IMG/VR virus record: IMGVR_UViG_3300008110_000329
Coordinates: 1-45,557 of that record
Length of the DNA: 45,557 nt
From: a virus
Direction: 5' to 3' (one strand)
The notes under the pieces were generated by a model that saw only the letters and a program-made list of their open reading frames with translations, did not search any database and had not been told where the DNA came from. Of the stretch, positions 41,744 through 45,102 are shown in pieces. A program made the position numbers and the translations under genes. Numbering within the stretch: the first letter of the stretch is position 1; every line of letters starts with the position of its first letter.

Positions 41744-42460
41744 ATGCTTCCTAAAATTGAACATCCTGTGCATGAAGTGTTTTTAAAATCGTTAGGCAAA
41801 AACGTTCGCTTTAGACCATTTTTAGTAAAAGAAGAAAAGTTACTATTAATGGCAAAGGAATCTGACGACATTGAAGAAATCACAAAGTCTATCAAACAAA
41901 TTATTACCAATTGTTGTTTGGACAATATTGATGTAAATAAATTACCAACCTTTGATGTTGAAATGTTTTTCTTACATCTAAGAATTAAATCAGTTGGCGA
42001 AACTGCTCAAATGGTTTACACTTGTGATAACATTGTTGATGGTAATGTGTGCGAACACCAAACTGATTTCGATTTAGATCTTAAGAATGTCACTTATGAA
42101 GAATCAGAAGGACACACTAACACTATTAAGTTAACAGAAAAGATCGGAGTGTCATTTAACTATCCATCACTTAATATGCCAGAAGCAGCATTGAATGAAA
42201 AATTTGAAGATGGCGGGTATGAACTTATTTCTCAGTATCTAGATTTTATTTACGATGATGAACAAGTTTATAAACGAGAAAGCGTATCAAAGGAAGAACT
42301 GACTGCATTTTTTGACAACTTATCGTTAAGTCAAGTAACGCAAATCAAAAGGTTTTTCTTAGATGCACCAAAGGTTGTTTTAAAACAACAACTAACTTGT
42401 AAAAAATGTTCTCATGTTCATGATGTGAATGTGGAGGGCGTTCTAAATTTTTTCGACTAA
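41744..42460 (+). CDS. 26: Baseplate hub assembly / tail chaperone (gp26-like)
   Basis: A 238-aa gp26-like protein. The start KIEHPVHEVFLKSLGKNVRF and RPFLVKEEKLLLMAKES are typical of this family, as is the helical C-terminal part. Four cysteines (C94, C103, C219, C222) form a CX8C...CX2C pattern suggesting a zinc ribbon. It has a good GGAG site 6 nt before the ATG. In T4 this protein is needed for hub formation. At its 3' end the codons CTA AAT TTT TTC GAC TAA contain the heptamer A AAT TTT, which would allow a -1 shift into a 66-codon extension. The gene precedes a tape-measure candidate, matching the tail-assembly chaperone position in other phages. Confidence 0.8.
   Translation: MLPKIEHPVHEVFLKSLGKNVRFRPFLVKEEKLLLMAKESDDIEEITKSIKQIITNCCLDNIDVNKLPTFDVEMFFLHLRIKSVGETAQMVYTCDNIVDGNVCEHQTDFDLDLKNVTYEESEGHTNTIKLTEKIGVSFNYPSLNMPEAALNEKFEDGGYELISQYLDFIYDDEQVYKRESVSKEELTAFFDNLSLSQVTQIKRFFLDAPKVVLKQQLTCKKCSHVHDVNVEGVLNFFD
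42445..42451 (+). promoter_or_regulatory. Putative -1 ribosomal frameshift site (A AAT TTT)
   Basis: The heptamer AAATTTT fits X-XXY-YYZ with the gp26 reading frame exactly (A | AAT | TTT), three codons before the gp26 stop. Slipping one base back places the ribosome at TTT-CGA-CTA and opens 66 codons. A short inverted repeat, TAAC(5 nt)GTTA, begins 6 nt downstream (42458-42470), the right distance for a stimulator, although it is only 4 bp. Confidence 0.72.
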
Positions 42461-42651
42461 CACTTGGTTATGAGAGTTTAAAGAATTACTATACAACTAA
42501 TTTTACATTATTGCAACACCATAAGTATTCTTTAACTGAATTGGATAATTTGATACCTTGGGAAAAACAAATTTATGTCACTATGTTGGCGCAATATTTA
42601 AAAGAACAAAATGAGCAAATGAAGATGCTCGAAATGCAGAGAAGAAAGTAA
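42451..42651 (+). CDS. 51: gp51-like C-terminal extension in -1 frame of gp26
   Basis: A 66-codon reading frame beginning FRLTLGYESLKNYYTTNFTL and continuing with QHHKYSLTELDNLIPWEKQI, YVTMLAQYLKEQ, then a charged end. The IPW-E-x-x-IY block followed by an acidic helix is the form I associate with short marine gp51-like proteins and with the T part of tail-chaperone fusions. It has no in-frame ATG or GTG until codon 45 (42583) and no ribosome-binding site at its front. Its frame opens at 42424 inside gp26. It would therefore be expressed as a gp26-gp51 fusion of 302 aa through the shift at 42445-42451. Because it has no start codon, ordinary gene calling would miss it. Confidence 0.75.
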   Translation, partial: FRLTLGYESLKNYYTTNFTLLQHHKYSLTELDNLIPWEKQIYVTMLAQYLKEQNEQMKMLEMQRRK

Positions 42652-42654
42652 TAA

Positions 42655-45102
42655 ATGGCAGATAAAAACGACAAACTCAAGAAAGGTTTACTTAAAGACA
42701 TCTTAAAACAGGTGAAGGGAGTAAACGAACAGTTTGAAAAAGTCGCTCAAGCTGAAATGGAAGCTGCTGCCGAAGGAAAGGGATTTATCTCTGGAACATT
42801 TGCGAAAGCCAAAGCAAGAGAAAGAATTGCCCAAGAATATATGATGGCAACGAAAGGAACCATCAATAAAAGACAAGCCATTTTTGATGCACTAGGTTTA
42901 GAAAAAATTGGTAAAATGGCAGAGGCATTTTCCCCAGGCGAAAAAGCTGAGCCTCCTGCTGAATTAGTTAAGAAATTTGGATTAGATAAGAAGTCAGCAA
43001 AACAAGGTGGTGCAGCTGGTAGAAATATTGCGAAACCACTATCGCTTATTCTAAGAAATGTCATTGAAACAAATAAGATAGTAAAGACTATCGAAAAAAG
43101 TTTAGCAAAAGCCAGCGCACCAAGAAGCAGTCGTTACGTGTTTGATCCAAGAATGGCTGGTGGCGGAAGATATCGAGACACAGTTACAAATAAACTTGTA
43201 TCAACTAAAGTAGCACAAGGCGAAAGAACAGCTGCCTTGACTGCTGCTATCGGTGCTGATGAGCAACCATTGGTTCAATTGAAAGAAACATTAGATAGTC
43301 GCTTTGAAGAATTAGATGAATCAATAAAAAATATTAGGAAACTCGAAAGCGCTGTCAGTGGCATTAAGTTTTCGATTGATGGCGTTATTCCAAGAATGGT
43401 AGGACTTTCAGTACACAGTAAGTTAGATTTAATTTTAGCAAAAAGTTCTGCACCTGACGTAGATCTACCTGATAGCAACAGAAGAAAACCTTCTGTTCGA
43501 GACAGACTAAAGAAAGGTGTTAAGGGTTTGGGGAGACTCGCAACTCGAGCAATAGGTGTCGCAACATCAGCACCAGTTGTTGCTGCAGCTGGTGCCGCAG
43601 CTGTTGTTGGCGCAGGAGCATATGCATTAAACAGAGGAATGACTGCTGCAGGTAATACTGCGAAGTCAGCTATGGATGCGCTTGAGAAAAAATATGGTCT
43701 CAAACCCATATATGATGCAAAGGGTAATGCGACTGGATACAGTGTAAATGGAAGGAATTATGGATTAACCGATTTACCACAAGAATATAAAGACTTGATT
43801 GCGGCTTATGGTCCAGGTGATAAAAGAAGTTTTGATGCTAGACAAGCACTAGCAAGAATTAATAAAAACCCTGAAAAGTATAGAATGTTGGAAATTGGTT
43901 ATAAGCCAAAACCTGCAGCAGCAATTTCTACTCCTCCTGTTCAATCAAAAGTAACTGGTGCACCAACAACAGCTGCACCAACAAGCACAGCTCAAAGAGC
44001 TATTTCTGCTGTTAGAGGAACTGTCTCAGCTGCTGTTACAGCAGGATCTACTGCAGCAAGCAAAGTCGGCAGTACTGTAGGTGGCGCTGTCACCTCAGCA
44101 GGTGCAGCAGTGAGTGGCGCTGCAAGTGGAATTATGGGAACAATAACCTCAGCAATGAATAGTGTTGGGTTAACAAATAAATTTGCTCAAATAGCATTAC
44201 TAGCGAATATTAAAAAAGAATCAGGATTCAAACCTACGGGCGAAAACCTAAAATATTCAGGCACATCAAACGATCGCATTCGTAAAATTTTTGGTTCTCG
44301 CGCAGCAAAATACTCTGACGAAGAATTGAATGTAATTAAGAAAGATGAATATAAAATGGGCGAATTGATGTATGGTAAGGATACTCGTGTTGGTCAAAGT
44401 ATGGGTAATAAAGAAGAAGGTGATGGATACAAGTATCGTGGGCGTGGCTTTATTCAGCTAACAGGAAAAAATAATTATGCTGCATATGGCAAACAAATAG
44501 GTGTTGATTTAGTTGGTAATCCAGATTTAGCAAACGATCCTGTTATTGCTGCGCAAATAGCAGCAAGATTTATTATGACAGGATTAAAAAATAAAATAAA
44601 CTTCACTGATCAAAAATCTGCCAACATGGCTGTTACTAAAACGATTGGTGGTAATCTTGATTTATCAAAGGGATATGGTGCTGAAATTTTAGCGAAAGTA
44701 GATGCTTATTCAAATGATTTCGGCAATATTTCTGGCGGATCGACAAGTGGATCAACTGGCAGTGGACCTATGTTAGCATCAACAACTGCACCAAGTAGTA
44801 GTCCTATGGTAGCATCAACAACTCCATCTTCTTCATCAATAACACCTGCACAGAATACAACAGGAACTCAAGTTGCTCAAGGTTCTTCGCAACTCGAAAC
44901 ATCAAAGATGGTTGCATCAACAGCCCAACCTGCGGCACCAGTAGTTATTAATAATTCTGTTGGTAACAATAATATGCCACCACAAGCACCAAAGCAACCA
45001 TTGCCTATGGCGTCGACAAGACCATCTGACAATGCATATAATCGTGCTATCGCAAAAGACTTCGCTCATCCAACGGCATTTACTTCTGTCGGTATGGCAT
45101 AA
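42655..45102 (+). CDS. Tape-measure/hub candidate with GH19 lysozyme domain
   Basis: An 815-aa protein. The N-terminal third is charged and helical (KLKKGLLKDILKQVKGVNEQ, then FEELDESIKNIRKLESAVSG). A hydrophobic segment at 307-326 (PVVAAAGAAAVVGAGAYAL) could cross a membrane, as in tape-measure proteins that help DNA entry. A long Ala/Ser/Thr-rich linker follows. Residues about 500-685 form a GH19 chitinase-type lysozyme: catalytic E522 in NIKKESGF, E530 in GENLKYS, and YRGRGFIQLTGKNNY (594-608). The C-terminal 115 residues are Ser/Thr/Pro-rich and low-complexity. It follows the gp26/gp51 frameshift unit, where a tape measure is expected; T4 gp29 is the analogue, but I see no clear match, so no symbol is given. 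Confidence 0.68.
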   Translation: MADKNDKLKKGLLKDILKQVKGVNEQFEKVAQAEMEAAAEGKGFISGTFAKAKARERIAQEYMMATKGTINKRQAIFDALGLEKIGKMAEAFSPGEKAEPPAELVKKFGLDKKSAKQGGAAGRNIAKPLSLILRNVIETNKIVKTIEKSLAKASAPRSSRYVFDPRMAGGGRYRDTVTNKLVSTKVAQGERTAALTAAIGADEQPLVQLKETLDSRFEELDESIKNIRKLESAVSGIKFSIDGVIPRMVGLSVHSKLDLILAKSSAPDVDLPDSNRRKPSVRDRLKKGVKGLGRLATRAIGVATSAPVVAAAGAAAVVGAGAYALNRGMTAAGNTAKSAMDALEKKYGLKPIYDAKGNATGYSVNGRNYGLTDLPQEYKDLIAAYGPGDKRSFDARQALARINKNPEKYRMLEIGYKPKPAAAISTPPVQSKVTGAPTTAAPTSTAQRAISAVRGTVSAAVTAGSTAASKVGSTVGGAVTSAGAAVSGAASGIMGTITSAMNSVGLTNKFAQIALLANIKKESGFKPTGENLKYSGTSNDRIRKIFGSRAAKYSDEELNVIKKDEYKMGELMYGKDTRVGQSMGNKEEGDGYKYRGRGFIQLTGKNNYAAYGKQIGVDLVGNPDLANDPVIAAQIAARFIMTGLKNKINFTDQKSANMAVTKTIGGNLDLSKGYGAEILAKVDAYSNDFGNISGGSTSGSTGSGPMLASTTAPSSSPMVASTTPSSSSITPAQNTTGTQVAQGSSQLETSKMVASTAQPAAPVVINNSVGNNNMPPQAPKQPLPMASTRPSDNAYNRAIAKDFAHPTAFTSVGMA

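Follow-up and report, generated by a model that had tools for sequence, protein, structure and literature searches.

How is a reading frame translated that opens inside another gene and has no start codon there? The question is raised by an IMG/VR virus record of 45,557 bases, classed as linear and probably a fragment, which was analyzed over its whole length (hereafter, the window). Near the end of the window, a gene of the gp26 family of T4-type phages overlaps, in the -1 frame, an open reading frame (ORF) resembling gp51. A preliminary description suggested that the two act as counterparts of G and GT of phage lambda. The conservation of the overlap and the comparison with phages carrying two genes support this suggestion, as does, more weakly, the predicted fold of the N-terminal domain. 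We consider it very probable that a T4-type tail assembly chaperone gene is present at this locus and that two products are made from it via programmed -1 ribosomal frameshifting, the slippage itself being deduced from sequence comparison.

Under the proposed mechanism, most ribosomes would terminate at the TAA at 42458 and release a 238-aa short chaperone (gp26). A minority, as the presumed rate of slippage, would be held by pairing of the 16S rRNA with the upstream GGAGG, shift back by one base on T TTT TTC and synthesize a 302-aa fusion, comprising gp26 residues 1-237 and 65 residues encoded in the -1 frame. By analogy with lambda G and GT, the short form would coat the tape-measure protein, and tail-tube subunits would be recruited by the fusion through its C-terminal part.

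The overlapping reading frames and the ORF that follows

The gp26 ORF ends with CTA AAT TTT TTC GAC TAA (Table 1). The -1 frame is bounded by a TGA at 42421-42423 and a TAA at 42649-42651, and contains no ATG, GTG or TTG before a TTG located 53 nt downstream from the first base of the gp26 stop codon. The overlap of the two ORFs and the lack of an upstream start in the second one are thus as initially described, and the size given for the fusion was reproduced by computation (237 + 65 residues). Given the match to phrog_634, the -1 ORF is evidently a real gene segment. The family labels are 'baseplate hub' for phrog_150 and 'baseplate hub assembly catalyst' for phrog_634. A search of NCBIfam yielded no family for either gp26 or the -1 peptide, and a sequence search of the PDB yielded only two weak matches, neither of them phage-related. 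One PF12322 gene was found in the window record, which is probably a fragment.

Table 1. Features of the probable chaperone locus in the window
Feature	Position	Strand	Evidence
gp26-family ORF, putative short tail assembly chaperone (G / TAC-N), 238 aa	41744..42460	+	phrog_150 E 2.9e-61; PF12322 E 4.9e-58
-1 frame ORF; predicted extension ('gp51', T-domain equivalent) of 65 residues from the slip, 42454 on	42424..42651	+	phrog_634 E 5.9e-27; phrog_150 C-terminal part E 2.3e-05
GGAGG, Shine-Dalgarno-like element in V-E-G codons, 10 nt before the heptamer	42433..42437	+	anti-SD energy -9.8
AAATTTT, valid X XXY YYZ site, not conserved	42445..42451	+	at that place in 30/261 unique loci
T TTT TTC, conserved candidate -1 slippery heptamer	42448..42454	+	in-frame T TTT TTN in 259/261 unique loci
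815-aa ORF following the chaperone gene, in the tape-measure position, GH19 domain	42655..45102	+	PF00182 E 3.4e-11

Residues 219-222 of the window gp26 are C-K-K-C, and a Cys-x-x-Cys motif is also present near the end of T4 gp26. In several gp26 proteins of cyanophages and marine phages (L036-L041), NPKT or NPNT takes its place.

The preliminary description also had a tape-measure protein bearing a GH19 domain follow the chaperone. A match to GH19 was found, and the tape-measure role is suggested by position: the best PHROG match of the 815-aa ORF is to an endolysin family (phrog_181, E 1.6e-35), the match to the tape-measure family phrog_58 is weak (E 0.0032), and in Cr30 and HTVC008M the annotated tape measure lies one small ORF further on. 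Homologous ORFs follow gp51 in 15 of 258 other loci, with the best-matching segment in the N-terminal part in 11 and in the C-terminal half in four. Among six homologues tested for the hydrolase domain, four contain VanY (PF02557; L016, L007, L012 and L026) and two contain GH19 (L023 and L010), so that the ORF after the chaperone has, by all appearances, undergone a domain swap within the clade.

A conserved heptamer and a conserved -1 frame

We examined 297 loci, namely, the window, IMG/VR loci and stretches of 23 named phages. The IMG/VR loci were obtained from alignment scans as the best 80 per query, chosen by similarity, and are accordingly a non-random sample; scans with single proteins gave two relatives each for Cr30 gp26 and nt-1 gp26, and six for T4 gp26. 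A gp26 match was detected in 295 of the 297 loci, the exceptions being L022 and L216. After four loci with two paralogues were set aside, 291 single-gene loci were left, with 261 unique regions that form 70 clusters at 60% identity and 30 at 50%; because the loci are mutually related, counts over the 261 regions are not independent. In one contig (L227), the tblastn match to gp26 (403-1091) includes 18 stops in one frame, which suggests an indel.

The preliminary description named A AAT TTT as the slippery site. This heptamer fits X XXY YYZ exactly; the conserved site, however, is T TTT TTC, which was not named there and sits one codon past it. AAATTTT was ruled out as the conserved slip site on the counts in Table 1; close relatives mostly read CTA AGT TTT TTC at this place. 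Alignment of the relatives, proposed at the outset as a check on both AAATTTT and the -1 frame, bore out only the latter.

An in-frame T TTT TTN occurs within the last 14 codons of gp26 in nearly all unique loci. All members carry the heptamer in 68 of the 70 clusters at 60% identity and in 28 of the 30 clusters at 50%. In the remainder of these genes, 44 of 56,090 codon positions have T TTT TTN, so that a stretch of equal length would be expected to contain it about 0.01 times per gene. The placement of T TTT TTN at the end of gp26 is, judging from these counts, not due to chance. The heptamer is missing in two unique loci, those of Vibrio phage D524 (L044) and Salmonella phage Maynard (L055). 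In both, the gp26 gene without the heptamer is accompanied by no significant gp51 match.

Could the T run be a mere by-product of a conserved Phe-Phe end of gp26, in a case of ordinary compact gene packing? The FF end of gp26 is indeed conserved, and TTT is the favored codon, with a mean P(TTT|F) of 0.72. However, NNT TTT TTN encodes the FF or FL end in all 259 loci, against 0.43 per gene predicted from the genes' own codon use, and is retained even in high-GC3 phages, such as PhiW-14, RL38J1 and X1. T4 keeps FF but encodes it as TTC TTT after GAG. Furthermore, the overlap shows constraint on the -1 frame, as detailed below. Compact packing is, in our assessment, the least probable of the alternatives considered here, with hardly any weight left to it.

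The -1 frame is conserved from the slip onward. A gp51 model was built from the -1 translations of 18 loci of the set and searched against all three frames; the -1 frame gave its best match in 290 of the 291 single-gene loci, with E<1e-3 in 284, and in one incomplete locus of the 291 no match was found. The six weak matches came from three incomplete loci and from L044, L053 and L055. The first -1 codon after the slip encodes Arg in 205 of the 214 loci in which the last base of the heptamer is C, and this residue is fixed by a single G; in the gp26 frame, the residue at the same place varies among G (76), A (55), V (36), D (20) and E (18). In ten loci, the gp26 stop lies 24 nt further on, and the family motif is found in the -1 frame from the slip, beginning with R-I in nine of the ten; the gp26-frame tails of these loci are also alike, so that the selected frame is undecidable from these ten alone.

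Candidate signals around the proposed slip site and alternative routes to a second product

Upstream of the heptamer, the candidate Shine-Dalgarno-like element of the window pairs with the anti-Shine-Dalgarno (anti-SD) sequence more strongly than the encoded peptide would require. The mean energy under a synonymous-codon null is -6.15, and a value as low as that of the window was reached in 0.5% of 200 draws. Across the 259 loci, anti-SD pairing peaks at this place with a mean of -6.8 kcal/mol, compared with about 0 over all offsets (s.d. 1.6), and the set mean of -6.90 compares with -5.04 under the synonymous-codon null (s.d. of the null mean 0.08). Consistently, the Glu preceding the conserved Gly is encoded by GAG in 146 of 193 cases, as opposed to 1,388 of 5,538 elsewhere, and with one locus taken per 60% cluster, GAG is used in 36 and GAA in 13. 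The element thus appears to be favored beyond the need of the peptide and may stimulate slippage. Energies of -5 kcal/mol or lower are reached in 195 of the 259 loci, such that a strong element is missing in part of the set. In 11 two-gene loci, the best energies, taken over a wider stretch, range from -2.4 to -7.5 (the latter in L304), which makes for a weak and not a clean contrast between one-gene and two-gene loci. As given in a passage of PMC5009743, Shine-Dalgarno stimulators of -1 shifts, with dnaX named as a case, are spaced by 9-14 nt, a range that includes the 10 nt found here.

Downstream of the heptamer, 50-nt windows are more stable than their shuffled versions (mean z -1.61, n 254; control windows -0.20), with z < -2 in 39% of the 254 loci and in 8% of the control windows. 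Hairpins of 14 bp and 6 bp were predicted in cyanophages S-PM2 and P-HM2, respectively. Changes on both sides were seen in 1 of 11 and 2 of 12 pairs, in two groups that were picked mostly for their hairpins. In the window itself, no downstream RNA structure was detected (z +0.42 to +0.87), and in its clade, a search of pseudoknot-free structures revealed no convincing hairpin or longer structure.

A fusion of the same sequence could also arise if an extra base were added within the T run in some of the mRNAs. The slip site lies in a run of T, insertion of one U would lead into the same frame, and the run comprises eight T in 18 of the 259 loci. Nevertheless, it comprises exactly six T in 229 and seven in 12, without general lengthening, and both the Shine-Dalgarno-like element and the hairpins that some relatives have are of the kinds that stimulate ribosomal frameshifting. 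Transcriptional slippage is accordingly given very little credence, only slightly more than compact packing.

Termination-reinitiation is another route, by which translation would begin anew at or close to the gp26 stop and the second ORF would yield a small protein of its own, with GGAGG serving as its ribosome-binding site or as a ribosome holder. An ATG overlaps the gp26 stop in 17 of the 261 unique loci, one of which, L044, lacks the heptamer; some ATG, GTG or TTG is present between the opening of the -1 frame and the eighth codon past the slip in 115 of 259 loci; and GenBank records, such as that of S-PM2, annotate gp51 with its own start. Over the same span, 144 of the 259 loci are start-less, as is the window, where the first start is the TTG at +53. 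The other 16 loci with the overlap keep the heptamer; the anti-SD energy just before the ATG is -3.6 in one of them and between -1.7 and +1.9 in 15, whereas 12 of the 16 reach -5 or lower at the distance appropriate for the heptamer. Moreover, the conserved first -1 codon precedes the overlapping ATG, and the long form of T4-type phages is an in-frame fusion. The preliminary description counted relatives with an independent start and no slippery site as evidence against frameshifting; among the loci with the overlapping ATG, this combination is represented by L044. We regard reinitiation as very unlikely, although it is the strongest of the three alternatives to -1 ribosomal frameshifting.

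The heptamer and the stop/ATG overlap coexist in L042, L043, L045, L047, L054, L056, L095, L142, L164, L171, L172, L177, L189, L289, L296 and L297, and these 16 loci may yield a free C-terminal product. The two parts are never joined in the 18 annotated one-gene stretches, gp51 being either a separate CDS or unannotated. Frameshifting, if it occurs, would explain why gp51 has doubtful annotated starts or is absent in the records examined.

One gene or two, probable chaperone function and comparison with known systems

The counterpart of the one-gene arrangement is provided by T4 and other phages with two genes. The two T4 proteins are paralogues: gp51 has a match to phrog_150 at 13-280 of 282 and a further one to phrog_634, and gp26 has a match to phrog_150 at 14-235. 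T TTT TTN is absent from the last 14 codons of all 14 short genes of two-gene loci, several of which are nearly identical to T4. With the gp51 model, 13 of the 14 long forms were recovered, that of L305 being missed, whereas all 14 are matched across the junction by a model derived from 28 in-silico fusions, with the match to T4 gp51 covering model positions 26-282 of 299. In T4, the roles of the short and long forms would accordingly fall to gp26 and gp51, made without a slip site. In whole-genome searches, the 13 one-gene phages chosen had a single PF12322 gene each, and the nine two-gene phages chosen had two each; likewise, each of ten chosen IMG/VR records, six of them longer than 100 kb, had one gp26 match. 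Both arrangements occur within Straboviridae, with one gene in nt-1, Ah1 and EniLVp02, and two in T4, Aes508 and KP15.

We advance, as a tentative scenario that might well not hold, that phages belonging to a single family have exchanged recoding for gene duplication, the slip site being lost once a long copy exists; that the T4-type cassette is dnaX-like, comprising the Shine-Dalgarno-like element, the heptamer T TTT TTC and a stem-loop, the last in some of the relatives; and that the minority of loci with the stop/ATG overlap make three products, namely, the short form, the fusion and a free C-terminal domain. If the frameshift reading of the locus is correct, related phages that make the two chaperone forms via slippage or via two genes represent a clean natural experiment, and swapping the two solutions would allow the required ratio of short to long form to be tested.

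The AlphaFold2 model of gp26, built from 57 sequences, has a mean pLDDT of 88.7. Its first ~90 residues gave matches to 3FGX (Z 7.9), 2OB9 (Z 7.3) and YqbN (3KLU, Z 6.9), the next match having a Z of 4.5. The HK97 tail assembly chaperone 2OB9 superimposes on gp26 residues 1-84 with an rmsd of 3.3 over 83 residues, although Z scores below 8 can reflect a common arrangement. We take 3FGX and 3KLU to be chaperones as well. A Foldseek search with the model returned no PDB match at E<=0.001. The modeled N-terminal domain of gp26 thus appears to resemble the HK97 chaperone. In the lambda scheme, as outlined in a passage of PMC5009743, G attaches to the tape measure, and GT uses its T part to attach to the tube subunit; the same source, in 2016, named T4 as an exception to this scheme. 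If the reading of gp26 and gp51 as a frameshifted chaperone pair is correct, the old 'baseplate hub' names would be tied to tail assembly through the G/GT scheme.

Vladimirov, Gautam and Davidson reportedly identified the tail assembly chaperone genes of T4-like phages in 2022 (Virology 566:9); from the short gene and long fusion gene that were described, these would be gp26 and gp51. Passages of PMC10885494 describe some T4-like phages in which a short gene and a longer fusion gene take the place of frameshifting, and passages of PMC12846349 mention, for the TAC-N genes of such phages, -1 signals of the poly-T type; both refer to the 2022 study of Vladimirov and colleagues. According to these passages, this kind of system is already in print, and the initial remark that no such arrangement had been described for T4-type gp26 and gp51 looks outdated. 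Among the listings searched, no open paper was found by title on gp26/gp51 frameshifting in T4-like cyanophages. The Shine-Dalgarno-like element, the hairpins in some relatives, the tested one-gene/two-gene pattern and the uncultured clade may be new.

Among the known systems, T4 gp26/gp51 is of the same family: the window gp26 belongs with it in phrog_150 and PF12322, and the match of the fusion model to T4 gp51 spans the junction, but T4 has two separate genes without a slip site whereas in the window both forms would come from a single gene with T TTT TTC. The slip sequence of lambda differs from T TTT TTC, and the window, unlike lambda G/GT, contains a Shine-Dalgarno-like element. The resemblance to lambda consists in the gp26 N-terminal domain, with its apparent similarity to the HK97 chaperone, and in the predicted pairing of a short chaperone with a minor -1 frameshift fusion, a pairing described for lambda in a passage of PMC5009743. 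The chaperone frameshift of Vandenendeviridae and Andersonviridae, for which a passage of PMC12846349 presents phage Adele, compares by its motif, GTTTTT, with T TTT TTN here.

With Escherichia coli dnaX, some relatives of the window share a downstream stem-loop. The slip codons of dnaX are AAA AAG and its shifted product is the shorter one, whereas the slip codons of the window are TTT TTC, the predicted shifted product is the longer one, and no stem-loop was found. What the window and dnaX have in common is an X XXY YYZ heptamer preceded at 10 nt by a Shine-Dalgarno-like element, the kind of stimulator for which a passage of PMC5009743 names dnaX; if the frameshift reading is correct, this element is an addition that is both specific and testable.
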